DNA of 33,235 nucleotides. Origin: a virus. Positions 445-17,647 of this stretch are shown piece after piece (position 1 is the first letter of the stretch; each line of letters starts with the position of its first letter). The notes below the pieces were generated by a model. The model made no database searches, had not been told where the DNA came from, and saw only the letters and a program-made list of their open reading frames with translations. The DNA is taken from positions 1-33,235 of the IMG/VR virus record IMGVR_UViG_3300012000_000077; one strand, written 5' to 3'. A program made the translations under genes and the position numbers.

Positions 445-599
445 GTAAAACAATAACACCAAGGATGGTTCAAGATTGGTTAACTGATGTGGAGGATGTT
501 TCTTATATTTTTGCCGATATAGCCAATGGCAAACTCACACCATCAGAGTTAAAAGAAGATATTTCAATCTATATAGATAACGAAAGGAGCTCACGATGA
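441..599 (+). CDS. small acidic protein, function unknown (52 aa)
   Basis: This gene is short but well supported. Its ATG (441) lies in an ATGA overlap with the previous stop, an AGGAG lies about 6 bases upstream, and its TGA (597-599) overlaps the next ATG in the same way. The product begins MSKTITPRM, is acidic, and contains a TPSELKEDI-type helix start near residues 33-41. The sequence is more AT-rich than its neighbours. No family is recognised and no membrane segment or metal site is visible. Its place between ATGA junctions argues for real translation. Confidence 0.65.
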   Translation: MSKTITPRMVQDWLTDVEDVSYIFADIANGKLTPSELKEDISIYIDNERSSR

Positions 600-1207
600 C
601 ATTAGCTATGGCTGAGTCCATGATCGGGGCTCTGTCCAATCCAAGCAAGATGCCCGGCTGGGGCTGGGGTATCTCCGCACTCAACTGCAACATTGGAACC
701 AAACTAAGGGATGTAATCGATAGCGTATGCGCTGAGTGCTACGCCTTACGCAATCATTACGTCATGAAGAATGTGGTGCAGGCCCACGCCAAACGGCAGC
801 TTGCCTCCAACCGCGATGATTGGGTCGACCTCATGGCGTTTATGATCAACGCCAAATCAAAGAACAAAGGCGGAGACGCCTTCCGTTGGTTTGATTCGGG
901 CGACCTTCAGTCGGTACAATTACTGACAAAGATCTGTCAGGTCTGCGTCAAGACACCCAAGGTAAAGCACTACCTGCCGACCAAGGAATATAAGATTGTG
1001 CAGGATTATGTTCAGGGCGGCGGGGTTATCCCCGACAACCTGTGCATCCGATTGTCAGCTTACATCATTGACGGTCCCCTGCCCCAAGCCTTGGCCCAAC
1101 GCCTCGGCGTACAAACAGCTGTACAACAAGTGCTTGGACTGCCGCATTTGCTGGGACAAATCCACACCCAACGTCAGCTACATCAAGCATTAAGAAAGGA
1201 TACATGA
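596..1207 (+). CDS. GP88-family phage protein with an apparent 3' frameshift
   Basis: The start ATG (596) follows AGGAG (585-589) by 6 bases. The N-terminal 150 residues match the mycobacteriophage 'gene product 88' pattern: a SKMPG segment near residue 17, CAECYALRNHY near 45, and RWFDSGDLQS near 97, followed by a segment resembling an RLSAY motif. Family members normally end with a Cys cluster of the form CxxCxxCW. In this frame that cluster is absent, and residues after about 165 look random. The cluster does occur in the +1 frame at 1128-1193, so an indel or ribosomal frameshift lies near 1080-1135. The family has no firmly known function; the cysteines suggest zinc or iron-sulfur binding. 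Only its place beside two HhH glycosylase-like genes hints at a DNA-related role. Confidence 0.75.
   Translation: MTLAMAESMIGALSNPSKMPGWGWGISALNCNIGTKLRDVIDSVCAECYALRNHYVMKNVVQAHAKRQLASNRDDWVDLMAFMINAKSKNKGGDAFRWFDSGDLQSVQLLTKICQVCVKTPKVKHYLPTKEYKIVQDYVQGGGVIPDNLCIRLSAYIIDGPLPQALAQRLGVQTAVQQVLGLPHLLGQIHTQRQLHQALRKDT
1128..1193 (+). other. displaced GP88 C-terminal Cys motif in the +1 frame
   Basis: Reading codons from 1128 gives KCLDCRICWDKSTPNVSY followed by IKH and a TAA at 1191-1193. This is the kind of Cys-rich tail (CxxCxxC then WD) expected at the end of GP88-family proteins. It is in a different frame from the main ORF, which reads on to TGA 1205-1207. A direct repeat GTACAA (1109-1114 and 1121-1126) lies just upstream and could mark a slippage or deletion point. 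The fragment has no start signal of its own. Confidence 0.6.
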
Positions 1208-1776
1208 TACAACCCATTAACCCTGTTAATGTTACGGACTACCAAAGAGACGATTCAAACCTTCAAGCCTTCTGGATCTTTTGCGTGCTGACTGCCGGCA
1301 AGAACGCCGACACGGCAGCCAAGAAAGTATCCGAGCTGTTGAACCGATTCACCACGCAGAAACCCTTTGAGTACATACGACAGCTTGGGCCCCTCGGTCT
1401 ACGCAACGCCCTGCTTACCGCCAAAAGCGGACAGTATGAGCGGATCTCCCAAGCTTTAATGGAGTCATGCAGCCTGAACTTACGACACGCAACAACTGAT
1501 GAACTGGACGAAGTCTACGGTGTGGGACCCAAGACAGCCAGGTTCTTCATCCTGCATACCAGACCCTTGGTTAGGGTCGCTGTGCTCGACACTCACATCC
1601 TTAAATGGATGAAGAGTGTCGGCGTAGAAGATGTGCCCGAGACATCCCCAACAGACAAAAACGTGTACGAAAAGTATGAGCGTATTTGGCTCACGCTTTA
1701 CCCGTCACACTTCCCCAACTGCACGCCGGCGCAAGCCGACTTGCTTATCTGGAGATTAATGAGCGGACGCGAATGA
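1204..1776 (+). CDS. HhH-GPD DNA glycosylase (EndoIII/Ogg-like)
   Basis: The 190-residue product fits a minimal HhH-GPD base-excision glycosylase. The helix-hairpin-helix VYGVGPKTA (residues 104-112) carries K110 where EndoIII and OGG have the catalytic lysine. VAVLDTHILKW (125-135) supplies D129 at the position of the conserved aspartate. A helical segment before the hairpin fits the usual fold. The C-terminal iron-sulfur Cys loop of EndoIII is absent, so it resembles the cluster-less 'thermostable 8-oxoguanine glycosylase' types found in phages. Its substrate cannot be read from sequence; repair of oxidised bases or handling of modified phage bases is inferred. It is joined by ATGA overlaps on both sides, with GAAAGGA just before the start. 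Confidence 0.8.
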   Translation: MIQPINPVNVTDYQRDDSNLQAFWIFCVLTAGKNADTAAKKVSELLNRFTTQKPFEYIRQLGPLGLRNALLTAKSGQYERISQALMESCSLNLRHATTDELDEVYGVGPKTARFFILHTRPLVRVAVLDTHILKWMKSVGVEDVPETSPTDKNVYEKYERIWLTLYPSHFPNCTPAQADLLIWRLMSGRE

Positions 1777-1985
1777 GATTCTTTTACCACTTCAACAAAC
1801 CCTTATCGACACAACGCAAGGACGTCTGGTGGACCATCCACTACCAGGGTCAATGCGTCCCCGTCAAAGGTTTCGAATGCCGTGTGCCAACACACGACCG
1901 CAAACGAAAATCACAACCCCGTGCAGTTGTCTGGGGCGACGCCCACAGCATCAGCATTCAGGACAACCGCGCAATCATCACATGA
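1773..1985 (+). CDS. small conserved-looking phage protein, unknown (70 aa)
   Basis: The chosen start is the ATG at 1773, within an ATGA overlap with the glycosylase stop. A longer in-frame extension to 1686 would run deep into the glycosylase gene and is rejected. The product starts MRFFYHFNKP, has a VWWTIHYQG strand-like segment (18-26), a basic stretch DRKRKS (near 44-49), and ends with alternating hydrophobic residues. It looks like a small beta-rich protein. No catalytic motif or named family is recognised. Placement between the two HhH genes suggests, but does not show, a shared pathway. Confidence 0.65.
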   Translation: MRFFYHFNKPLSTQRKDVWWTIHYQGQCVPVKGFECRVPTHDRKRKSQPRAVVWGDAHSISIQDNRAIIT

Positions 1986-1996
1986 AGGAAACCCCT

Positions 1997-2212
1997 ATGA
2001 CGACATACGCCATTAAGAACAACCGCAACCTTTGGCTCTCCATCGACGATACCTGGCTCGACCTTGAGGAAGGCATCCGCCAGGACACGATACGCGGCTA
2101 TACCGAGTTGGACGCAGTCAACGAGGATCTGCTTAAATACCAGGACGAGAAGGCCACCATCGCCTACCATCCCTGGCAGTTGGGCCGGACCCGGGAACTG
2201 CTGCTTACATGA
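1997..2212 (+). CDS. small acidic protein, unknown (71 aa)
   Basis: Two starts are possible. ATG 1997 has AGGAA at 1986-1990 with 6-base spacing and gives MTTYAIKNNRNLW. ATG 1982 forms an ATGA overlap like other junctions here but has no ribosome binding site. I prefer 1997. The protein is acidic with a WLDLEEGIRQ segment (residues 20-29) followed by a second helix, and looks all-helical after a short N-terminal strand. Its TGA overlaps the next ATG at 2209-2212. The function is not recognised. Confidence 0.65.
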   Translation: MTTYAIKNNRNLWLSIDDTWLDLEEGIRQDTIRGYTELDAVNEDLLKYQDEKATIAYHPWQLGRTRELLLT

Positions 2213-2853
2213 CTGCCGGCATTAGGGATCTTTACTACAACCTCAAACAATCAGACATCGACAGCTACACCCGTTACTGGGATGAGATCAATCCCAGGGG
2301 AGACAAGATGCGGGAGTTCAAGTTCTGGATGTTCAGCATCTTCGCAGCCAACATGGGCTGGGAGGACAACGTCAAGTGCATGGAAGCTGTCGGTAACCAC
2401 AATGATTGGATCGATAATACAGCCGAATTGGAACGCAGACTGTACAACGCGCGTACCGGGTTATGGCGCAGCAAGGCCAGAGATATCCAGCGCTTCACGC
2501 AGTTGTTTATGCACAAGTACCATACGTTTGTGCGTCAAGCCAACGAGAGCTGTACCGAGTACCGCAACCGCATAGCCGAAACTGTCCCTGGTTTAGGGTT
2601 GGCCAAAGCCAGCTTTGCCATTGGCATGTTGAATCCTAACTGCATGGTCGTCTGCCTGGATCGATTGATCTTGCGTGGAATTCATGCATTAAAAGGACGG
2701 CAGGTAAACAAAACTGAGTACACTAAAATGGAGAACCATTGGACTAGACTCGCCTCTGACTATGATGTTAAACCCTTCATTGCCAGAGAGATATGGTGGA
2801 ACAAGCTTCAAGGCTTTAAGTCCACACGATATTGGAGTAAGACTTTGGAATGA
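2209..2853 (+). CDS. second HhH-GPD-like DNA glycosylase-fold protein
   Basis: This 214-residue protein has a second helix-hairpin-helix signature, VPGLGLAKASFAIGML (126-141), followed by VVCLDRLILRG (147-157), where D151 matches the conserved aspartate of the HhH-GPD superfamily. Aligned on GxG, the lysine (K133) sits one residue later than the catalytic lysine of EndoIII, so lyase chemistry is uncertain. It may be monofunctional, use K133 in a shifted loop, or be non-catalytic. The N-terminal 110 residues are rich in Trp, Tyr and charged helices. It is separated from the first HhH gene by only two small genes and coupled to both neighbours by ATGA overlaps. Confidence is good for the fold and moderate for glycosylase activity. 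Confidence 0.7.
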   Translation: MTAGIRDLYYNLKQSDIDSYTRYWDEINPRGDKMREFKFWMFSIFAANMGWEDNVKCMEAVGNHNDWIDNTAELERRLYNARTGLWRSKARDIQRFTQLFMHKYHTFVRQANESCTEYRNRIAETVPGLGLAKASFAIGMLNPNCMVVCLDRLILRGIHALKGRQVNKTEYTKMENHWTRLASDYDVKPFIAREIWWNKLQGFKSTRYWSKTLE

Positions 2854-5105: not shown

Positions 5106-6053
5106 CTACCCGTTAAAGAACCCCGGGAACTTGTATTTGACTGGCTGTTCATAATCAAAAGTCGGTTTATTTAGGCTGTTGGCGTAATCAGAGAGCATCA
5201 TGTTGGTTGCGTTTGACCCGGCTGAGTCTCCTGCCCCGGCAAAACCAGAAAGCAGTTCCGCCAAGCCGCTCATAATATCCATGCCCTTACCGGCCATACC
5301 GGCAGGTTCCGCACTCTTGCTCATCATAGCTCCTCGACTAGGACTGCTAGAAGACATCAGATTATCTCCGAATGGAGTCTTTCCTTCAGTGCCCCCATCG
5401 GGTGTCCTTTTTTTAAACCAATCAATTACATCCCCTGTTGCGTCCCGACCATTAGGCGACATGGCATTAGCCACCGAAGTATTTGGGTCCAACGGTTTAT
5501 CCATTTGGGCCGCACCTTTTTTAAAGGAGAAGCCGGGCACGCCACCTTCAGGCTGTTCGGCTGTCCTGTTCCCTGGAGGCATCGACCCTTTGATCTCAGG
5601 CAATAACCTGTCCACGCTCTTCATTGCACCCATGATAGAGCCTGAGTATTCGCTGGGGTTTGTTGTGGCGTAACCGGACGTGGCCAACGCATTGGCAAAC
5701 CCCATTGGATCTTTCTGCCCGCGCACATTCTTATACCGATCGGTGGACAGAAAGTTACCGTATTCGTCCGCGTAGTGATTGATGTCATTGAACTTTTTAA
5801 AGTTAGCCTCGGTGTTAATGACCTTTCCGTTTACGGTTTCTTTTGTCGGCATGCGGACGGACGGTCCGTTCTTCCATTCTTTAATTCCACCGAAGTTGTT
5901 TGCTGCTTTGGACAGCTTGCTTGTCCCCCATCCGGACTCCATCGCCCACTGAGCTATGACTGCGTTGCTGGGAACCCCTAATCTTGCGGCTACGCGCTCG
6001 GCTGGCACCACTGCTTGTCGGATAAAATCGATTTGCTCTTGTCTTGTAGCCAT
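5106..6053 (-). CDS. virion peptidoglycan hydrolase, glucosaminidase (FlgJ-like) domain
   Basis: Residues about 5-150 match the endo-beta-N-acetylglucosaminidase family: NAVIAQWAMESGWGTSKLSK (30-49) with E39 at the catalytic Glu position, NNFGGIK (52-58) as the usual following motif, then a YADEYGNFLS segment and a GYATTNPSEYSGSI-type segment closing the domain. Residues 150-315 are low-complexity, Gly/Ser/Met-rich and probably structural. Location between the giant virion protein and other internal protein genes suggests a particle-borne enzyme that opens the cell wall during DNA entry, not the lysis enzyme. The gene is followed after two bases by a tiny gene. No clear ribosome binding site precedes the start; a promoter-like element lies immediately upstream. 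Confidence 0.85.
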   Translation of the reverse strand: MATRQEQIDFIRQAVVPAERVAARLGVPSNAVIAQWAMESGWGTSKLSKAANNFGGIKEWKNGPSVRMPTKETVNGKVINTEANFKKFNDINHYADEYGNFLSTDRYKNVRGQKDPMGFANALATSGYATTNPSEYSGSIMGAMKSVDRLLPEIKGSMPPGNRTAEQPEGGVPGFSFKKGAAQMDKPLDPNTSVANAMSPNGRDATGDVIDWFKKRTPDGGTEGKTPFGDNLMSSSSPSRGAMMSKSAEPAGMAGKGMDIMSGLAELLSGFAGAGDSAGSNATNMMLSDYANSLNKPTFDYEQPVKYKFPGFFNG

Positions 6054-6094: not shown

Positions 6095-9000
6095 CTACAG
6101 CTTTACGCCTTGTCTGATTAGTTCGGGTGTAATTTGTTTCTTGGCGGTCTCTGACGCTTGCTGGCCAAGCTTCTGAAGATAGTTGTCCAACTGCTCCGAA
6201 CTCATTCTTTTGGCCATCGCAAAGAAAGACGGGCGTCGCACAACCTGGGCAATAATCTTTCCCCTCATCTCCCTAAATTTATAGAACTGCTCATCGTTTA
6301 GCTGGTAATTACCCACCTTGGTTCCTCGTCTTGCGTCAGGGATAAAGGCGTTCTTGGCCATGAAGAGTTTAAACAAGGGATCGGCCTCAGAGGTGTTGAT
6401 AAACCTTTGAAGGAATAGCATACGCTCGGGTCCAGCCGGGGCGTTAACAACCTCACCCAGCACGTTGAGTTGAGGTGTCCCGGTCATGCTCTTAAGGATA
6501 GGCACTTTATTAAAGAGCCACTTTCCAACAAAGCTCGTCTGCTGTTGCGGGATGGGTTCGAAGATCTGGTCGGCTTGTTTGATAACGTTGGGAACAGCGT
6601 TGCCTACTGCCCCAGAGAAAAAGTTTTGCAGGGCGGACACGTCCTGGCCCTCTGAAGTTCCGTCCAGCATTTTGAACAGATTGGACAAGCCCTGTAGGAA
6701 GGACTGGTTGAAAGGGACTTGAGCCACGGCAAGGGCTGCCGAAGTCAACTTCTCGGTTATGTCTTTTTCGCGACCCCTTGGGTAGTTAGACTGATCAAAC
6801 CACGTTCCGACAATCGACAAAGGAATGGCTAACGGTGTGGAGAGGTAGCTGAGCTTAAGACTGTTGCCCCCGAAGGAGAAGGAGTAAGGGACGTAACCAC
6901 CTTCTCTCGCTTGCTTTCTGGCCGCCGGATCGGAAGGCCCGCCACCAGTGATAGTAAATCCATCGTCCTGGCCATCGTCGTCCTTGTCCTTGAGCATCCC
7001 GGCCAATCCGGCAAGAACAAGCATGGCGCTTGTCCCAAGTACCGCCTGAATGGCGTAAAGACTACCCTGCTCAATTTTCTTAATCTGTTCCATCTGCTCG
7101 ACCGTCTTGGCCAAGCCACTGGTCTTCTTAGTGCCGGCCTCACTCCAAGCTTTAAAGGCTCGGTATGCCCCGATCGGCGTGTAGTTGATACTTTCGTTGG
7201 TCACGTTTGACACGATCTTGGTAAAGGGCACAAACAATGGGACGAGGATTGGATGCTCCCTGGACAATGTTCCAATGCCTTCGGCAATGTGCCCAAGCAA
7301 CCCGTAGGGTTTATTGTTGTACGTCGCGTACAGCGATAGGTCTTCAGCCCGGCGCATAATCGAAGCTCTCTCGGGGTCAGCCTGAATTGCCAGATCCCGA
7401 AGCTCATAAACACGCTTGGTAAAGTCCGCTGTGCCAGGCTTTAAATTCTCGCCCAGCGCTTGCTTTGTCGCTTGCTCCACAAATGCGTCTGTTTGATTGA
7501 GCAGTCTGGCTGTTTCTTCTTCGACAGAAAGATCGGTCACCTTGTTCTCTACGTTCTCAATCGCCTGGATCTGTGCCTGGATGGCTGCAAAACCCTCCAT
7601 GGCCGAACGACCAAACAGCGCATCGGAAGCGGACATGATCCGGAAAATGTATTTACCCTTGGACAGCACCTTCTTTATCAGGGTATCAGTGCCCATAGAT
7701 TCAAGAGCGTTGATGCTGGCCTCGTCCACGTACTTGCCATTTGTCCTGGGATTAATATCCCCGTGGAGCAGGATCCCCTTGGCTTCAGCCATGGCAATGG
7801 TGTGCATGGAAGCCAAAAATGTTTTGTACCCCAACGTCATGTACTTGATTGCCAACGCGGGGTTTCCTCTGGCAGCGGCCGCAGCCATGGAGTAAGTCGC
7901 AATGTCGGCGATTGCCTTAAACGCGGTCGACACAAAGTTCATCCAGAAGGTTGCAGGGCCGGATAGCATGGACATGTACCAATAAGCTGACACCTGGGGG
8001 AGCGCATCGGATTTCGTAGCGTTGTGCAAAACCTTCAGGGCCTCGTGGAATTTTCTGTCCCGTTGAAACCCATAAGGCGTTCTCGACGCATCTACCATCA
8101 TCTTTCGGAGCGTCTCGGCCGTATTCACATCAAACGAAGGGAACTTGCCCAGGCTTTCAATTGTCGAAAGAACAACGTCATCGTTGATTGCGCCAAGGGC
8201 GGCCAGCTCAAGGATCTTTCGGGCATCACCAGAAATAGCATCTTCGATGGTGTTGCCCGATTTGGAAATTGGAGGCTTTACCACCTCATGCATTTCAGTG
8301 ATCAGTTGCTCAATACGCTCAGCCCGGAGCTCGGCATTGTTCATGCCTTTACGGTTCACAATATTCCTTCGGAGCGTACGACCACGGAGACTCAAAGCCT
8401 TGCCGAGTTGGGTCTGCATGTTCTTTTGAACCATGTCAGCCAACTCAAACAGCAGGGGCTTGTTCTCATATTCCGGCAGAAGTTTGGCCAACACGCTGAC
8501 AAGGTCTTCTCCGCTGAACTCGGCGTAATGATTTCGGATGATAGTGGCCAGATCTTCCTGATTGGCCTGCGCCAATGCGGCTCCGTATAGTGTGTTGATC
8601 TGCTGGATCAGCGCCTGAACACCAGCATCATTCAGAGTAAGTCCCAATGCTTCGCCTTGAGCCTGCCTAACCTCTTCCCCGAGCGACCCCAGCTGCTCGC
8701 CTACCTTGTTCTTTAACTCGGCTCTTGTTTCCGCAAGTCGAGAGACATATTCACTCACCATCCCGGAGGGTGTGCGCATCAGAAATTCTTTAAGAAGCCT
8801 ATACCCAATTGAAATTGTTTGGCCCATACCCCGACCCAGACGACTTACCTGTTTTAAAAGGGTTGTTGCCTTGTGAAACTGTTTAGTCTCCGTAAACCGA
8901 CCGATAGCATAGCTGGCTAAGGTGACGATTTGAGTTTGATTAAGATTATAACTCTGATCACCGATATCCACCAACGATGTTTTGTCCGGGTCTACGGCGG

Positions 9001-12000
9001 CTGAAGAAAGCCATACAGCGACTTTGTCTGCGCTCAGCTCATTCAGGATGCTTTCGATGCTATCAATAGCACCCAGGTTCTTTAAGTAAGCGATCTCTCC
9101 TGCTCTGGTTTTTTCTTCGTACGTGGGAACACCGCCCTCGTTTTCAAATATCTCCGCCCGCCTGGATGCGGCCGCTTCTTGTCTTTGCGCCCCGATAGGT
9201 TTTGCCCGGTTTAACGCTTCCCCAACGGAAGCCAGTCCCTCGGCCTCAATACTTGGCTCGTTAACCGTCGGGGGAGCTACGTAATCAGAGTAGTAGCGTT
9301 CATAAAGCTCGCTGACTTTGTTGTACGTCTCGTAAAGACTTCTGGCTCTCGGGTCGGATGAAGCTTTAAGGGCGCTAAAGAGATTAAAGACCGAATCAAG
9401 CACCGTCCGCAACCAACCGAGGAATGATTTTCTTTGCGCCCTGGCGAAGTTATCCATCGCCATAATTTGCTGACGGGATTGCCCACGGATTAGGCTCGAT
9501 ACCCGGTCCTGCACCTGAAGGCTTCTTTGAAGCTCCAAGCCTTCGGTAAATATTTTAGCTCCCCTGCTCTTGTCCAACTCCAGAAGTAGCCGCAAGAACT
9601 CAGCCACCAGGACTTCATCGCTTTGCTTGGTTTCCGGGTAAAGTTCGCCCAGAGCTTCCGTAACTGAAACCGCCTTTTGCCCAGGTAGTTTGACCTTGAG
9701 TCCATTATCTTCTGATCGCAAGAAGTTTGCCGCTTCGCGGACCCGGCCGTTGTAGTAAGACACCCAAGAAACGCCGCCGTTGGGGAAGCGAGCCCTGTAT
9801 TCTTTACGGAGTTGCTCGAAGTATGAAAGATGCGCCACTTCGTGCGCAATCAGCTGGTCCATCAACTGCTCGGTCAGTTTGTCGTACGTGTTCCGAGCTA
9901 CGGGATCAAGGAAGTTAATGTCTTTCTGCTGGAAAAGTTTTTCTGCCAGAAGCTCAGGGTTAACGAAAATAGTCGAATTTACCGGGTCCATAGGATTGTC
10001 GGAACCGCGAACCGTAAACACCGGGTAGTTCTCCGTGGTGTTCGACTGAAAGTTCACGTTCTTCAACCCCTTGCGTCGGGCCGAGGACCGCAAATACTCC
10101 ATTGCCTTCTCCTGCCTCTGGTCCTGGAGATTAAGAAGGTTAGAATCAAAACTTACACCCGCATCGGCAAACCCTTCTTCTGTCGCGTACTTGGAGGCTC
10201 CTGATACATCCGCCTCAATCTTCCTTACCCTGGAGATGTTGGCCTGCTTGCGGTAAGGGTCGTTGACCTTGCGCATCTCGTTAAGGACGTAGGCAGGGTC
10301 GAAGGAGCTCCGGTTTTCAAAAGCCGGCAGGAGAACATTAAACAAAATATCGCGAACACGAGCCCTGTCGTTTTCAGGGCTGATAAGCTCATCCGGGCTT
10401 AGCGTTCCGTCAAACTTACCTACCGGGTCCAGCAGTTGCTCGAATAACTGCTCCCTTGTGGTGCCATTAAATTTGTAGATTTGGTTTAGCCGATTAAGGA
10501 TAAGTTCTGACGCATCCTTTAACGACGCCATGGGGCTGTTTGCGAGAATGTTTAAAAGGGTCTTCGGCAATGCCCCCACTCGCTTTGGGTTAGCGGCAAG
10601 GTTGATTATCCTTGTCTCTGGAGTTGATTTGTTGCCGATAGGAATTCCGGCCTGCCGAATGTCCTTCCGCAGCTGAGCCGCCCGGTTTTGTTCATCAACA
10701 ATCTCCTGCTCATATTGCCGAAGCGCCTCACGTACTTTTTCAGCATCCGCAAACTCCTGCATGTCGTTGCGTACAAGCTCCTGAAGAATCCCTTCGTATT
10801 GTTCTTTGGCGATTTGACCGAGAACAGCCGGCTCAATGAAAGAGGACGGAATGCCAGGCAGTGCCCCGAATATCGAGTTAAGGAGCTTGCCACTGAGAAA
10901 GCCCTTACCCTTTCCAGCATCACCAATTTGCGATTCTTCTTTAAGTTTGACGGTGGGAAACAGAATATCCAACTGGGCGTTGCTTTTGCCGAACACCAAC
11001 CCCTGCTGGGCTTTTTCATCACCTTGATACACAGTAGGGACATAACCCGCAGTAAATCCAAACCCTTCGCGCATAACAATGTCATGAACCGCCCGCCTAA
11101 TGAAAGGAAGTCCTTCCCTATACTCAGCCATCTGATTGATAAAGGCTTCGTACTTTTTCCTGCGTTTGTCTTTGGTTGGTAGTGTTTCATATTTGTCTAG
11201 CTCCGTGTCGTATGAGTCACCTGCTAAATCTTTTTGGGCGTCATAGTCGTTGCCGCTTTGGTCCGGCAAGAAGGCAACGTCGATAGCCTTTGATTCTGTT
11301 TCATTTGATTCGACCTTTTCCGTTGTCCCTTCCAATGAGACGAAGGAAACCTCGTTTATTTTCATGTTAGCGGCAATACCCACTACCCGTTTTGCCAGAC
11401 CGTCAACGCCACCATAGCCCTCAACTGACAAGGCAGTCACAAAACCGTAAAGCGTATTTGTAGGACGAGACTCGTTTAAGTACTCATCGCCAAACTGTTC
11501 GCGCATGTCTTCGTACTCAGAAAGAATCTTATTGAGCACGGCGTTGAGTTTCGCGCCATCAGCAGTCTTACTCATTAAGAGGGTTTCAATAAACACTCTG
11601 CGCATCAACTCACTATCCTTAAAAGTCTCGGTCTGATTGATATTAAGATTGTCGACCAGGTTGTTTGCCTCTTGCTCCGGGATACCGCTTTTCTTTACGC
11701 GACTCAGGAAGTGCTCTCTTGGCCGCCCCGACGTGTTCGGGAACTTCCTAGAGACACCCGCGTTCCAGCCTTTGGTCGTATCGTTGGCGTCCACCGGGCT
11801 GTACACCACACCACTATTAAATACGTTAACCGCATCTTCAATGAGCCTCGGCAATAGACGAAGTTCATCGGCGTCGAAAGCTCCCTCGTTAATAGCCTGC
11901 TGGAAGCGAGACTCGACATTCTCCAGGAATAGATAGTTCTGCTTCTCCCTTGTCTTTAGGCTCATTATGTTCGCGAGCCCCTTCTCTAACGACTCACGCG

Positions 12001-15000
12001 TCTTTCCGAATCCGTCTAGGTAGGACTGAGCAACGGCTTGAAGCAAGAGAACTCGGTTCTTAATTTCGTCGTCCGAGAAAGTTACGTCATCCAACGAAAG
12101 AGTATCCACACTGGCTGCTCTCTTTTCCCGCAACCATTCGTTAATGTTGTTGCCAAGATCGATAGCTTGTTCACGCGATAGAGCTGCAACCTCTCCAGTA
12201 GTCATTCTTCTTGCCCCATAAGGCAACTGACCAATCCACTCACCTTTAGAGTTATCGTAAACCCCGGTCAGGTAAAATCCGTCGTCGGTAGCATCAAAGG
12301 AAACGACATTTTGAAGCGCCTGAAGCTGTTGGTTAAACTCCAGAACATCCCTTGAAACAAGAATAGGACTGCTAGAATCCTTAATCGTACTTAATATATT
12401 CTGATACGTGCTTACCAGATCCTGAATACTAATATCCTTTGGTAGAAAGATATATTGGCCCAGCTTATCCTGCTCTGCGGCTACAGCGGTAGCGGCTTGG
12501 AGACTCTCTTCTTCGGAAGCTACTTCATCTGTCGGACGCTGTGGAAGCGGAGCTTTATCTCCCATGTACTCACCCGTGCGAGGATCTGTAATTCCTGTAA
12601 CGATTGCGTAACCATCTTTGGTCGTGACAGGCATCTCTTTGCCCGTCGTTCTGGCAATATAGGAAATTCTTGGAAGAACAATCATCCGAACGTACTTGCC
12701 TTCGGGGTCTGCTTTGCGGATCAGCTCAGCTTTTTCTGGCGAGATCAACATGCTTAACCTAGCAGACTTAACTTCCTTAGCCCCCTCGGCTGGTTCAAGA
12801 AGCCTATTATAAGCCACTCCACCCATTCCTCTGTCTACCTCGCCCGCGCCCTTCTGTGTTTCTATTTCCGGGATAGATTCGTCGGCAAGCCCTTCCTCAA
12901 ACCTTCGCTCACCTTCACTCAACTGCTTATTTACGGACGGGATAGTTTCTCCAGTGGGGCTAAAAGCCGGAACGGTATCCCCAACTACGCCGACCCCACC
13001 CCCAGCAATTTCTTCCTTAGTGCCTAGTTCGATCTCTTTATTAAATTCGTTTTCTTGGGTCGCAAAGAACGGCTGAAGGAGCCTGTAAAATACGCTTGTA
13101 AAGTCCTTTGATAATCCAGCTACAGGAGCTTCGGATGTTACAATTCCGAAGGCTGTTTTCATCTCGGTGACCATGATGCTGTCGCCGTGCCTGACGACGC
13201 CGGTGAAGATGCCAGGGTACGCTCGCACAAACTGAATAGTGTCCTGATCTGCAATAACTACGGGTTCGCCACGGGCCAGTTTTTCTGACACATCCAACGC
13301 AAACCTACCTCTCCAGTCGGTGCTTGGGATTTCACCAAGCAAACCCTTAGCCTGGGCCCAGCTCATATCTCGGAGTTCTTCCGGGGTCAGTGCTTTTTGA
13401 GCCGACATCTCACGAGTATCGAAAGCTTTAAGAGAGGTGGTCGGGTGTAAAACATCCGTATCCGGCACGATATTTACTCCGCCTGCATTGGGTATAAAAC
13501 GGTTTCTAAATGAGAACGGCAACACGCGCAGGACCTGACCCTTGTTGTCGTACAAATAAAGGGAGTTGGGTTTAAACTGTTTTTCTAGGCTGCCCTCTTC
13601 CGTAAGTCCTGTGGTATCCGCGGGTGTAAACTTAGCCGCAACTGGGTTGACTGAGCCCGTAAGTTCCCCTTTCGCAAAGGTTTGAACTTGGTCTGGCCTT
13701 ACACTTAAACCAGAACTCCGTTCAACTGACTTAATGTCTTTAGGTTTGTAGATTTCGAATATTGTTTGAACTGATTGCGGGTTATAAACTTGGCTTTTTA
13801 ATTTTGGGTCTCGGTCAATATACTTTAATGACCAACCCTCTAGATTTTCCCAAGCGGTACGACCCTCTGGAGTTTGCAGGTCGGGAGCTACAACAGAAGT
13901 TACTACGTATTTTGTAGGGTCATTTTCAAAAGTAATGATATCTCCTACCCCTGCAAAGGCTCTGCGTGTAGTACTCCTTCTTTTACCGTCTTGAATGAGT
14001 TGTAGCGTGGTCGTTCCTCTTGGGTAGTTATTTTGTAAACCGGAGCGCAACGCCTCTTTCGGCATAGAGTAACGCATTGGTATATTGGCGGGTTGAGCCT
14101 CATTGGTAGGTTTGGAAGACTCCATGTAAGGCAAGAAAAGATTGAGGTTCGCTAAAGAACCTGCGCGAGGGTCCCTGGCAATTGCTTTAGCCAGCATCTT
14201 CATGTACGTGCCTGGCTGGTTCAACGCGTACGTGTTTTCGTCGCGAACAGCCAAATACATTTCCGATGCAATCTTCTCGTTTTCAGCGTAATCCTTAACA
14301 ATGTTAAGCGCTTCTTTTAGCAACCTTACACTTGTCTGGGTTGGTTTAGATTCTGGTTTATAAGCGTTTATGGTGTTTAAGGCATCCTGAAGTGTTGCCA
14401 CTTGCTGAGGTGTTAAAGTCTTAAGCGCGGGCATTGATTTTGTGCGCATACGTTCTGGGTTATTGTCGAACAACACAGACTCAATATGCTTGGCCAGGTC
14501 CTCCGCAGGCACCGGCACGCCTGATACAGAGTCGTTCGCAAGCGCGGGTCCACCTTTAAAAACCTGACTCATATAACTTGAATTAACCTGCGCCCCAATC
14601 GGCCGCGCGGCCTCTTCTCTCGGAGCGAGTAGTTTATCTGGCTCAGCCTCATTAACCTGCCCGCCAGCCTTCGCTTGCTTTACCGCTTCGGTTTCACGCT
14701 CGTAAATCTTTGAAATGGTTTTCCGATACTCGGGCGTTACTGGAGAGAAATAGTCGAGGTCCACAAGATACTGCCGGCCAATCGCGTTTTTGGCCTCAAT
14801 GGTTTGCGGATTGGTCTGTGCCAGCTCCGCGGCCGTTTGAGTATCTACCTCGGTCCCAATCTCGGACACCCCGTTAACCCGAACAAGGAAAGTCCCCTTC
14901 TTAGAGTTTGCAAAAGCGGTAAACGGAAACGAAGAAAGCTTGGTAATGCCTCCCGGGGCTACGGCAGGATTGTAAACTGTACCCGATTTGGGAGTACCCA

Positions 15001-17647
15001 CGATTTCTCTGCGACGTTCGACCTTCTCGGAGTTAGCGGCAGACAACAGTTCCCGGGCTTGACGCTCACTTAGGATAATACCCCGAAGCAATTTCTTTCC
15101 TTTATTAAGAATACGGTCGGCCAAAGACAGGTCTTTATCTGGATCATTTGGATCAAGCGCTTGGGTTTCGCCAAGCACACGATCCACGTTTGGGATTGAA
15201 GCACTCCTCGTGGATTTCTTGCCCCGCGAAACGCTGACTCTACTTACGGGGGCTGTTGCGCCTGGGAAAATATTATGAGCAGTGCTGCTCAGGAATCTTA
15301 CGTTGGCTGGTATTTTGGTGCCTGCAAAAATAGCCCGTTCTTGACTGCCCGAGAATGTATGAGGGTATGCCCCAAACATAAGCATAAACTCTTTTCCGGG
15401 ATTAGCCTTGGCGTGATCAAAGAACTTTTGTATCTCGAGCTTGGCAGACCTGGGGTTAAATGTCTCATTATTACCCTGCCTGTTATTCTTTCCTTCCGGC
15501 CCCTTGTAGTTCCTATCAAAGATTGGAAGAGCATACGTTCTGCCATTTGCTCCGGTTTTTCCCTTTTCAGCACCTAGTTGTTGGGCAATCGGTCCAAATA
15601 CTTTATCATGATTGCCCTGAACATCTGTTCCAAATACCAGCACACGATCATTGGCTTTCGGGTCTACATTTGGATCAAAAGCAGATAGTAGTTTTTGAGC
15701 ACTTTCTTTAGTAGACGTATACCTTGTGGCTGGGATTGCACCGGCAACAATACTCCCGGGAGATGCGGATCTTGCGTAATCCATACCGGCAGCCTTACGC
15801 CGAGCATTTGCTTCAGTATTTAAATCCCGTGAAGCTTGATCTTTCGGAATTAAACCAAGTGTCTGAAATATTTCCCTAGCAGTATCCGTAGCTTCATTAA
15901 TTTTTATCTCAGTATTCTTGCCAGAGGGTTTTGTAGTCCCAACAAATCTCTGACCCGCCGTATTTTGAGGTCCGATGATAGTGAAATTTGTTTGATCTGG
16001 GTTGGCCTTAATATGTTCGAGAACCCTTGGAATAAGAACATCGGCGCTACGACCTTCAATAAGAGTTTTGCCCTGATCTAAGGCATAGTTTCGTGCTCTT
16101 GCCTGGCCTATGTCATTTGCAATCGATTCGTCGTTACCGATATTGATAACAAAGTCGGAGCTATCAATATTCTTTTGGTCAGCCTCGTCGGGGTTAGTTG
16201 TCGTATCAAATTCAAAGTTAGCCTCATCTTCTTGCTGGTTGGTCGCCACCTTGTAACCACCACGTTTAACCCCGTGCTGTTCTGCCAGAGATTCTGCAAC
16301 AGACGCAAAAGGCCCAAATGCACTACCATGATACGTAAAGGCGCCCTCGCTCTTGGGCTTCGGCATATTCTCTTCTGGGGTTCCAGTTGTAGCAAGGCCG
16401 CCGACCTCTTCCAAAGTCGCATCCTCAACCACATCGGATCCATTCAATAGATCATTAACATCGCGATCTTTAAGCGGTTGAAGCGACGGAGCAGGAGTAT
16501 TGGCGGCTTTCTGAGCTCCTTTAGCTACAGCCCCGGCGGGCAATCTCGGCTCCCCAAACTGACCCTTTTGTCTTTCTGTCTTAATCGTGGGGGCGCTGGT
16601 CTGACTTGGAAACATGGCGTTGGTTTTTGATTTTTCCTGCGCCGCTTGTTCGGTCTGAGGAATAAGACTACGGGCTCCGCCAAGTCCAAGCTCGACCATA
16701 CCGGGAACCATTTCTCCAATGAACTCTGCCCAGGCGTCGGCGGGATCGGACTTTTCGCCGATTGCTGCGCTGCCGGCCACTTCCCCCGCTGCGCCAAGCA
16801 TACCTTGAAGGGCAGCATCCCCAATACCCCTGGCTGCGAGACCTTTCAGCCCCTTAGCTGTTTTGAAAAGCATCTCCGACGGCAGGGCCACGGAAGCAGC
16901 GTCAAACGCACCGACAGTAACTCCGCGAGCCAAAGCCCTATTTTTAATCTGCTGTACTTTTTGTGGGTCACGCAGAATTGCGGCCACTTTTTCTGTGTCC
17001 TGAAGGTTCCCGGTTTCCTGTCGTAAATCATCCAAAACCTTTGACCCGCCCTCCACAAAAGCCGAACCAGCCCCAACACCAGCCATGGTGGCCAACAAAG
17101 CCGCCTCCTTACCTCCTCCGGCAACCTTAGCCCCAATATTCCCAGCCGCTCCCATAGCAAGTCCTGGAACACTCGAACCCAAACCTTGAGCCGCAATCAA
17201 GGCCGCGGCTTCAGGATTGGTAAAGATATTTAGAATTGGAGCTACCCAACCTTGACCTCCGGCTTTTTGGTATTTGAGCATCGCCCTAGCAACCGGCCGA
17301 GCCTGCAATTCCTTTTCTTGCTCCGCAATTTCAGCTGCCGCCTGGTCGGGGTCTTCGAGACCGTTAATAGCCCGAAGAGCTTTGGCTGCCTGCATAGAGG
17401 AGGACATGCCGTTCACGAACTCGTCCTTCATCCTCCCGAAGAAAGATCTTGGGTCCGGCTGTAGGTTTAAAGCTGTCTTTGCTGAATCAACCTCTTGCTT
17501 GGCCTGCAGGTATTGACGCATGTTGAAATTACCTGGCTTGAAAGCCTCGTCGTGCATGGCCTGTTCATACAGGCTTAGAAGCTCTTCCTGTTTGTCAGGA
17601 TCGGCCCCTTTGAACTTATCGTTCTGAAGGATGTCTGAAAGTTGCAT
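6095..17647 (-). CDS. giant polyvalent virion protein with SLOG-like, ASCH-like and zincin-like domains (3850 aa)
   Basis: Its place among internal virion genes matches the slot of T7 gp16 or N4 vRNAP, and its size matches the 'large polyvalent proteins' of phages, ejected with DNA. Residues about 140-350 are Ala/Gly-rich and hydrophobic. Residues about 437-560 resemble a degenerate SLOG/MoCo-carrier Rossmann domain (YHGSA loop at 439, SSDFVINIGN near 495). Residues about 668-790 resemble a small phage family with an FGSN..H and YALPT signature (FGTDVQGNH at 672, YALPI after it). Residues about 1190-1300 look ASCH/PUA-like (TLQLIQDGKRRSTTRR, GDIITF). A HEVAH zincin motif is at 2602-2606, with E2683 a possible third ligand. 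The C-terminal 700 residues hold hydrophobic helices (about 3220-3257, 3529-3553) and a DxDxDG calcium-loop-like motif near 3554. No RNA polymerase core motif was found. No ribosome binding site is obvious. Confidence 0.85.
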   Translation of the reverse strand: MQLSDILQNDKFKGADPDKQEELLSLYEQAMHDEAFKPGNFNMRQYLQAKQEVDSAKTALNLQPDPRSFFGRMKDEFVNGMSSSMQAAKALRAINGLEDPDQAAAEIAEQEKELQARPVARAMLKYQKAGGQGWVAPILNIFTNPEAAALIAAQGLGSSVPGLAMGAAGNIGAKVAGGGKEAALLATMAGVGAGSAFVEGGSKVLDDLRQETGNLQDTEKVAAILRDPQKVQQIKNRALARGVTVGAFDAASVALPSEMLFKTAKGLKGLAARGIGDAALQGMLGAAGEVAGSAAIGEKSDPADAWAEFIGEMVPGMVELGLGGARSLIPQTEQAAQEKSKTNAMFPSQTSAPTIKTERQKGQFGEPRLPAGAVAKGAQKAANTPAPSLQPLKDRDVNDLLNGSDVVEDATLEEVGGLATTGTPEENMPKPKSEGAFTYHGSAFGPFASVAESLAEQHGVKRGGYKVATNQQEDEANFEFDTTTNPDEADQKNIDSSDFVINIGNDESIANDIGQARARNYALDQGKTLIEGRSADVLIPRVLEHIKANPDQTNFTIIGPQNTAGQRFVGTTKPSGKNTEIKINEATDTAREIFQTLGLIPKDQASRDLNTEANARRKAAGMDYARSASPGSIVAGAIPATRYTSTKESAQKLLSAFDPNVDPKANDRVLVFGTDVQGNHDKVFGPIAQQLGAEKGKTGANGRTYALPIFDRNYKGPEGKNNRQGNNETFNPRSAKLEIQKFFDHAKANPGKEFMLMFGAYPHTFSGSQERAIFAGTKIPANVRFLSSTAHNIFPGATAPVSRVSVSRGKKSTRSASIPNVDRVLGETQALDPNDPDKDLSLADRILNKGKKLLRGIILSERQARELLSAANSEKVERRREIVGTPKSGTVYNPAVAPGGITKLSSFPFTAFANSKKGTFLVRVNGVSEIGTEVDTQTAAELAQTNPQTIEAKNAIGRQYLVDLDYFSPVTPEYRKTISKIYERETEAVKQAKAGGQVNEAEPDKLLAPREEAARPIGAQVNSSYMSQVFKGGPALANDSVSGVPVPAEDLAKHIESVLFDNNPERMRTKSMPALKTLTPQQVATLQDALNTINAYKPESKPTQTSVRLLKEALNIVKDYAENEKIASEMYLAVRDENTYALNQPGTYMKMLAKAIARDPRAGSLANLNLFLPYMESSKPTNEAQPANIPMRYSMPKEALRSGLQNNYPRGTTTLQLIQDGKRRSTTRRAFAGVGDIITFENDPTKYVVTSVVAPDLQTPEGRTAWENLEGWSLKYIDRDPKLKSQVYNPQSVQTIFEIYKPKDIKSVERSSGLSVRPDQVQTFAKGELTGSVNPVAAKFTPADTTGLTEEGSLEKQFKPNSLYLYDNKGQVLRVLPFSFRNRFIPNAGGVNIVPDTDVLHPTTSLKAFDTREMSAQKALTPEELRDMSWAQAKGLLGEIPSTDWRGRFALDVSEKLARGEPVVIADQDTIQFVRAYPGIFTGVVRHGDSIMVTEMKTAFGIVTSEAPVAGLSKDFTSVFYRLLQPFFATQENEFNKEIELGTKEEIAGGGVGVVGDTVPAFSPTGETIPSVNKQLSEGERRFEEGLADESIPEIETQKGAGEVDRGMGGVAYNRLLEPAEGAKEVKSARLSMLISPEKAELIRKADPEGKYVRMIVLPRISYIARTTGKEMPVTTKDGYAIVTGITDPRTGEYMGDKAPLPQRPTDEVASEEESLQAATAVAAEQDKLGQYIFLPKDISIQDLVSTYQNILSTIKDSSSPILVSRDVLEFNQQLQALQNVVSFDATDDGFYLTGVYDNSKGEWIGQLPYGARRMTTGEVAALSREQAIDLGNNINEWLREKRAASVDTLSLDDVTFSDDEIKNRVLLLQAVAQSYLDGFGKTRESLEKGLANIMSLKTREKQNYLFLENVESRFQQAINEGAFDADELRLLPRLIEDAVNVFNSGVVYSPVDANDTTKGWNAGVSRKFPNTSGRPREHFLSRVKKSGIPEQEANNLVDNLNINQTETFKDSELMRRVFIETLLMSKTADGAKLNAVLNKILSEYEDMREQFGDEYLNESRPTNTLYGFVTALSVEGYGGVDGLAKRVVGIAANMKINEVSFVSLEGTTEKVESNETESKAIDVAFLPDQSGNDYDAQKDLAGDSYDTELDKYETLPTKDKRRKKYEAFINQMAEYREGLPFIRRAVHDIVMREGFGFTAGYVPTVYQGDEKAQQGLVFGKSNAQLDILFPTVKLKEESQIGDAGKGKGFLSGKLLNSIFGALPGIPSSFIEPAVLGQIAKEQYEGILQELVRNDMQEFADAEKVREALRQYEQEIVDEQNRAAQLRKDIRQAGIPIGNKSTPETRIINLAANPKRVGALPKTLLNILANSPMASLKDASELILNRLNQIYKFNGTTREQLFEQLLDPVGKFDGTLSPDELISPENDRARVRDILFNVLLPAFENRSSFDPAYVLNEMRKVNDPYRKQANISRVRKIEADVSGASKYATEEGFADAGVSFDSNLLNLQDQRQEKAMEYLRSSARRKGLKNVNFQSNTTENYPVFTVRGSDNPMDPVNSTIFVNPELLAEKLFQQKDINFLDPVARNTYDKLTEQLMDQLIAHEVAHLSYFEQLRKEYRARFPNGGVSWVSYYNGRVREAANFLRSEDNGLKVKLPGQKAVSVTEALGELYPETKQSDEVLVAEFLRLLLELDKSRGAKIFTEGLELQRSLQVQDRVSSLIRGQSRQQIMAMDNFARAQRKSFLGWLRTVLDSVFNLFSALKASSDPRARSLYETYNKVSELYERYYSDYVAPPTVNEPSIEAEGLASVGEALNRAKPIGAQRQEAAASRRAEIFENEGGVPTYEEKTRAGEIAYLKNLGAIDSIESILNELSADKVAVWLSSAAVDPDKTSLVDIGDQSYNLNQTQIVTLASYAIGRFTETKQFHKATTLLKQVSRLGRGMGQTISIGYRLLKEFLMRTPSGMVSEYVSRLAETRAELKNKVGEQLGSLGEEVRQAQGEALGLTLNDAGVQALIQQINTLYGAALAQANQEDLATIIRNHYAEFSGEDLVSVLAKLLPEYENKPLLFELADMVQKNMQTQLGKALSLRGRTLRRNIVNRKGMNNAELRAERIEQLITEMHEVVKPPISKSGNTIEDAISGDARKILELAALGAINDDVVLSTIESLGKFPSFDVNTAETLRKMMVDASRTPYGFQRDRKFHEALKVLHNATKSDALPQVSAYWYMSMLSGPATFWMNFVSTAFKAIADIATYSMAAAAARGNPALAIKYMTLGYKTFLASMHTIAMAEAKGILLHGDINPRTNGKYVDEASINALESMGTDTLIKKVLSKGKYIFRIMSASDALFGRSAMEGFAAIQAQIQAIENVENKVTDLSVEEETARLLNQTDAFVEQATKQALGENLKPGTADFTKRVYELRDLAIQADPERASIMRRAEDLSLYATYNNKPYGLLGHIAEGIGTLSREHPILVPLFVPFTKIVSNVTNESINYTPIGAYRAFKAWSEAGTKKTSGLAKTVEQMEQIKKIEQGSLYAIQAVLGTSAMLVLAGLAGMLKDKDDDGQDDGFTITGGGPSDPAARKQAREGGYVPYSFSFGGNSLKLSYLSTPLAIPLSIVGTWFDQSNYPRGREKDITEKLTSAALAVAQVPFNQSFLQGLSNLFKMLDGTSEGQDVSALQNFFSGAVGNAVPNVIKQADQIFEPIPQQQTSFVGKWLFNKVPILKSMTGTPQLNVLGEVVNAPAGPERMLFLQRFINTSEADPLFKLFMAKNAFIPDARRGTKVGNYQLNDEQFYKFREMRGKIIAQVVRRPSFFAMAKRMSSEQLDNYLQKLGQQASETAKKQITPELIRQGVKL

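Follow-up and report, generated by a model that had tools for sequence, protein, structure and literature searches.

An OGG2-like HhH-GPD protein and a companion with a lysine shifted by one residue recur together in uncultured phages

Two HhH-GPD genes in one operon

The window analysed here is a whole stretch of 33,235 nucleotides (IMG/VR record IMGVR_UViG_3300012000_000077, positions 1 to 33,235), a 33-kb piece of an uncultured water-borne phage that holds part of its genome. Two of its plus-strand genes encode HhH-GPD proteins, here called P1 and P2. P1 has a lysine at the canonical Schiff-base position, and P2 has an alanine there with a lysine one residue later. Both proteins have the HhH hairpin G-x-G followed by the GPD aspartate, and both pass the 27-bit cut-off of the Pfam model Ogg-HhH (PF22175), with 39.2 bits for P1 and 36.6 bits for P2. 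The C-terminal four-cysteine iron-sulphur loop of EndoIII, present in bacterial EndoIII-type matches to this model, is absent from both sequences. Most of the matches in a bacterial phylum read as EndoIII by motif and C-terminal cysteines, and we therefore rejected the PF22175 match as proof of OGG2 identity; because the model also detects EndoIII-like proteins, the match of P2 shows membership of the HhH-GPD superfamily only.

The genes between 596 and 3437 are mostly joined by ATGA-type overlaps (1204-1207, 1773-1776, 2209-2212 and 2850-2853). A first-pass annotation made from the sequence had placed two HhH glycosylase-like proteins in one operon beside a GP88-family gene, and the family matches and junctions agree with it on each of these points. 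A small correction is that P1 and P2 are separated by two short open reading frames (ORFs).

P1 is OGG2-like in build

The best sequence matches of P1 are OGG2 crystal structures, with which Lys110 and Asp129 align as the catalytic pair. In this alignment the structures 3knt, 9o01 and 9o02 differ in residue at exactly the catalytic lysine and aspartate positions. The classical lysine and the aspartate named in the first-pass annotation read from the codons as stated, and both (G-x-G-x-K110 and D129) are invariant in 11 members of the P1 family, at identities down to 39%. The structure model of P1 (predicted local distance difference test, pLDDT, 90) has the two-domain helical HhH-GPD fold and superposes on MjOgg (3knt) with a Z score of 17.5 and a root-mean-square deviation of 2.5 over 170 residues. 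The likeness to OGG2 proteins (MjOgg, 3knt/3fhf; Tm1821, 3n0u; SsOgg, 3fhg) covers fold, length, the HhH lysine, the GPD aspartate and a DLxIW helix. On these sequence and model comparisons P1 is OGG2-like in build, which does not imply 8-oxoguanine (8-oxoG) as its substrate.

P1 is a member of phrog_11575 (149.4 bits, a whole-protein profile match over residues 5-184) and has 35-39% identity to cultured-phage copies, among them phiCbK gp186, whose name 'putative N-glycosylase/DNA lyase' was given by similarity only. Relatives of P1 occur in 35 phage records, mostly of Caulobacter phages, one of which carries that annotation.

The lysine of P2 lies one residue past the canonical position

P2 has Ala132 at the Schiff-base position, Lys133 next to it, and Cys149 and Asp151 further on. 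A P2 profile that takes in a relative with 31-33% identity from contig G013 (profile A7) matches MjOgg 3knt with an E-value of 5.5e-6 over residues 11-160. This alignment is ungapped, and places Ala132 opposite the lysine position (Gln in the 3knt mutant) and Lys133 opposite the Glu that follows. In a register test with 16 canonical sequences as reference, the ungapped reading wins for each of the three P2 sequences and for 24 of the 27 shifted-lysine sequences compared. For the three P2 sequences the bulge-free register is ahead by 8.7-9.8 bits when the lysine position is left out, and by about 3-4 bits when it is counted. In this register P2 has Ala132 where OGG2 has its catalytic lysine (G-x-G-x-K). 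The register and the MjOgg alignment together indicate that Lys133 is shifted in sequence; a shift in space is not implied, given the pLDDT of 56 for the P2 model.

The same arrangement, Lys133 preceded by Ala132, is kept in P2 relatives at 74% and at 31-33% identity, which gives three P2 lineages, and the aspartate and the cysteine two residues before it are invariant in all P2 sequences. The claim that the lysine of the second protein comes one place late is thus borne out by codons, register and conservation alike. Compared with the copy in the 76-kb relative G006, P2 has 98.6% amino-acid identity, with dS 0.40, dN 0.009 and dN/dS about 0.02, and by this codon comparison P2 is under strong purifying selection. 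No P2 relatives were found in bacterial genome contigs, in 398 genomes from a single bacterial phylum (a search run without a positive control) or, by tblastn, in cultured phages. The weak similarity between P2 and HIV integrase (E about 0.1) was put down to chance.

A wider phage family shares the shift

Motif and profile scans of viral contigs reveal a divergent phage family, here A5, with the signature G-L-G-x-[AVP]-K-[AG]-[SG]-F followed by C-x-D. One motif scan, whose search pattern itself included the lysine, gave 327 loci, and a second scan used peptide patterns outside the lysine site. The family alignment has 58 distinct rows, mostly from the second scan; four cultured-phage copies and two P2 sequences are included in it as controls. 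In all 57 aligned rows that cover the site, the shifted lysine, the phenylalanine, the cysteine and the aspartate are present, and the canonical lysine position is occupied by Ala, Val or Pro and in no row by Lys. Judged by this alignment, the one-residue shift is a constant, defining feature of a large phage family that as yet has no name. This family is recognised neither by Pfam models nor by PHROGs (nine members searched). Its best match in the PDB is OGG2 (E 0.0014), and with its profile the lysine-to-serine mutant 9o02 reaches 21.6 bits against 21.0 bits for the wild type 9o00. Cultured members, all hypothetical proteins, are found in Paracoccus phage ParKuw1, Microcystis phage Mwe-JY26, Roseobacter phage CRP-9 and DSS3_VP1/PM1.

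P2 carries the A5 signature in the form G-L-G-x-[AVP]-K-[AGS]-[SG]-F with C-x-D. The two share the core GLGL[APV]K[AG][SG]F and the C-x-D, and align by hhalign with an E-value of 2.3e-11 over 78 columns, the match of P2 to the P1 family being weaker (2.7e-7). They differ elsewhere: the invariant C-terminal Y, W-C and S-x-x-H of A5, and its N-terminus, do not align cleanly with P2. The likeness in the HhH core may reflect either common descent or convergence on a short motif.

Replication regions are the setting of the shifted-lysine genes, which adjoin genes for DnaB helicase/primase and DUF932 proteins. At 51 of 89 A5 loci a DUF932-like gene is found no more than 2 kb away and in the same orientation, often overlapping the stop codon; the same applies to 10 of the 24 A5 clusters formed below 75% identity. 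Membership of DUF932 is inferred for these neighbouring ORFs from number and length. Other neighbours include two matches to pyrimidine dimer DNA glycosylase (PF03013), two to Thy1 and one to alternative oxidase.

Recurrence of the pair and gene neighbourhood

Six contigs in IMG/VR, the longest of 76 kb, contain P2; the identity is 97-99% in five of them and 74% in one (G005). The order DUF932, RIIA, RIIB, GP88, P1, P2 and a 195-residue ORF is the same in G006 and G005. Full homologues of P1 and P2 also occur within one 8-kb stretch of G013 (L250:1552-9814), with RIIB and RIIA between them, and contig G007 has P1, GP88 and, at its edge, the C-terminal 44 residues of a P2 homologue. As the search for P2 concentrated on phages in which P1 had already been found, this recurrence is not a rate of P1-P2 linkage. 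Elsewhere P1 neighbours DNA ligase (CcrColossus), DNA polymerase I (an Erythrobacter phage) and RIIA/RIIB (phiCbK), and RIIA and/or RIIB lie upstream of P1 in 5 of 11 loci outside the window group. With such neighbours, a place in DNA maintenance fits.

Table 1. Genes and catalytic-site codons around P1 and P2 in the window
Feature	Position	Strand	Basis or remark
GP88-family gene	596..1207	+	203 residues as read; PF17338, 78.8 bits; 3' end overlaps P1 start
P1, OGG2-like HhH-GPD protein, 190 residues, K110 and D129	1204..1776	+	PF22175, phrog_11575, model, invariant K/D
P1 Lys110 codon, canonical Schiff-base position	1531..1533	+	Sequence, alignments
P1 Asp129 codon, GPD aspartate	1588..1590	+	Sequence, alignments
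Short ORF between P1 and P2, 70 residues	1773..1985	+	No family match
Short ORF overlapping P2 start, 71 residues	1997..2212	+	Counterparts in G006 and G005
P2, shifted-lysine HhH-GPD protein, 214 residues, A132, K133, C149, D151	2209..2853	+	PF22175, A7 profile, conservation
P2 Lys133 codon, one residue past canonical lysine position	2605..2607	+	Sequence, alignment, register test
P2 Asp151 codon, GPD aspartate	2659..2661	+	Sequence, conservation
ORF downstream of P2, 195 residues	2850..3437	+	Position kept in G005 and G006; no family match

Further along the window, a single minus-strand ORF of 3850 residues extends over 6095-17647 (4167 residues in G006 and 4012 in G005), and a glucosaminidase-domain protein (PF01832), endolysin-like by PHROGs, is encoded at 5106-6053. 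G006 also encodes an integrase-like protein (L039:8873-10150; PF00589 just under the cut-off), so the phage is possibly temperate.

GP88 and the companions expected of base modification

The GP88 gene of the window has a 41-nucleotide deletion relative to G006, at 1122-1123, which shifts the frame and removes a C-terminal cysteine-rich stretch (CPAKQQNNKCLDCRICW); the deletion may be a real mutation or an assembly error. Five of the seven contigs that carry P1 also have GP88, 1.4 to 15 kb from P1. We found it in 18 phage records, and the four of these that were searched whole have neither type of HhH gene; it is also absent from all 20 searched contigs with the shifted-lysine family. Because GP88 occurs widely without HhH genes and is missing from those 20 contigs, it was rejected as a functional partner of the pair.

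A Pfam scan of the 59 proteins of G006 found no base-modification enzymes: no thymidylate or hydroxymethylase, kinase, glycosyltransferase, TET/JBP or deazaguanine genes. G006 does encode a 2-oxoglutarate-Fe(II) (2OG-Fe(II)) oxygenase-like protein (L039/L040, 19771-20427; PF13759, 74 bits), for which the G005 contig has no equivalent. The first-pass annotation had taken the pair beside GP88 to suggest a specialised base-excision or base-editing pathway rather than plain repair. With no modification genes among the scanned proteins of G006, and with GP88 frameshifted and not generally linked to HhH genes, that claim falls back to two recurring HhH-GPD proteins.

Discussion

In the HhH-GPD superfamily the residue at the lysine position is Lys in EndoIII and OGG1, Trp in AlkA, Tyr in MIG, Ser in MutY and Glu in MagIII and Mja-UDG, and replacing Glu by Lys at this position turns Mja-UDG from a monofunctional into a bifunctional enzyme (PMC11754123). 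By this rule P1 would be lyase-competent and P2 either monofunctional or inactive, and the invariant aspartate of P2 favours activity. We consider it about an even chance that P1 is a lyase-competent OGG2-like glycosylase and P2 a lysine-less, probably monofunctional one, both belonging to a DNA-maintenance module with RIIA/RIIB. P1 would use Lys110 as Schiff-base nucleophile together with Asp129, for base excision and abasic (AP)-lyase action. P2 would belong to a phage class of its own within the HhH-GPD proteins, marked by Ala, Val or Pro at the lysine position and a lysine directly after it. Most probably it is a monofunctional glycosylase with the aspartate as sole catalytic residue, or at least a binder of DNA lesions; its Lys133 would more probably contact the DNA backbone at the hairpin than form a Schiff base. 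Made together, the two proteins would probably work one after the other, with damaged or unusual bases of phage or host DNA as their targets, and an attractive proposal is a division of labour in which P2 takes out the base and P1 cuts at the abasic site.

Like MutY, AlkA, MIG, MagIII and Mja-UDG, P2 has a non-lysine residue at the nucleophile position and keeps the GPD aspartate, but Ala, Val or Pro followed by an invariant lysine occurs in none of these (PMC11754123), and a PDB search with the P2 profile gave no sequence match to any of the five. It shares the aspartate with OGG2, but its full-profile match to MjOgg is weaker than that of P1 and the nucleophilic lysine is missing.

Several observations weigh against the glycosylase reading of the pair. 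OGG2 proteins have a strictly conserved C-terminal lysine that is needed for 8-oxoG cleavage, not for lyase action (PMC3397491), and both phage proteins lack it: P1 ends in SGRE, with varying ends in its family, and P2 ends in SKILE in G005 and in SKTLE in its near relatives and the window copy. Thus 8-oxoG is not implied for P1. The match of A7 to MjOgg stops at residue 160, which leaves the C-terminal third of P2 outside the matched fold. The P2 model, built from seven near-identical rows, has no fold match at E<=0.001 and is of too low quality to place Lys133. Finally, the loss of the nucleophile could equally well go with a non-catalytic protein.

That last reading, in which P2 is a non-catalytic HhH-GPD-fold binder (a sensor of lesions or AP sites, or a helper of P1 or the replisome) and Lys133 makes a phosphate contact, is the most serious competitor, though we think it rather unlikely. 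It agrees with the Ala, Val or Pro that stands at the lysine site throughout, and with the replication setting of the shifted-lysine genes, but a mere binder needs no catalytic aspartate, and both this residue and the cysteine two before it are invariant in all P2 sequences and in 57 of 57 relatives. Conversely, P2 might be a bifunctional glycosylase/lyase whose Lys133 reaches the sugar through a one-residue bulge or by another approach. The lysine of A5 is as invariant as the aspartate, and the low-confidence P2 model is compatible with such a lyase. We regard it as improbable because the sequence prefers the ungapped register, also in alignments to two OGG2 structures, and because the A5 profile scores the OGG2 mutant without the lysine no lower than the wild type.

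The two remaining proposals concern what the pair would act upon. HhH-fold enzymes have reportedly been proposed to take part in thymine hypermodification, and P1 and P2 could by analogy serve the modification or editing of phage DNA bases, as HhH-fold transferases or in a base-replacing pathway with GP88. The oxygenase-like protein of G006 fits this idea, but the lack of companion enzymes among the scanned proteins, the absence of an oxygenase counterpart from G005 and the lack of a general link between GP88 and HhH genes make it very improbable. Lower still is the probability that we give to a counter-defence or superinfection-exclusion device against the modified DNA of other phages. A monofunctional glycosylase, Brig1, does protect bacteria from T4 (PMC11078745), and the RIIA/RIIB neighbours carry the rII protein annotation, but the gene content offers no pointer to a modified target and relatives of P1 adjoin DNA ligase and polymerase genes.

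Returning to the reading of P1 as a lyase-competent and P2 as a lysine-less glycosylase, we tentatively extend it, as a possibility that we hold to be doubtful, to the wider family. The shifted-lysine proteins, P2 among them, might constitute a new class of HhH-GPD catalysts, widespread in aquatic phages, marked by the invariant Lys-Phe...Cys-x-Asp and excising bases without a Schiff-base lysine, and in some phages they might be paired with an OGG2-like lyase in a two-enzyme excision pathway.

HhH-GPD glycosylases are classed according to which residue occupies the lysine position. A large family with Ala, Val or Pro there and an invariant lysine directly after it is a natural test of what this position does. 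The family assignment also offers a first clue to the function of hundreds of phage genes that are now 'hypothetical'. The recurrence of P1 with P2 suggests that some phages may carry base-excision steps of their own, which bears on how phages protect their DNA or attack that of the host.
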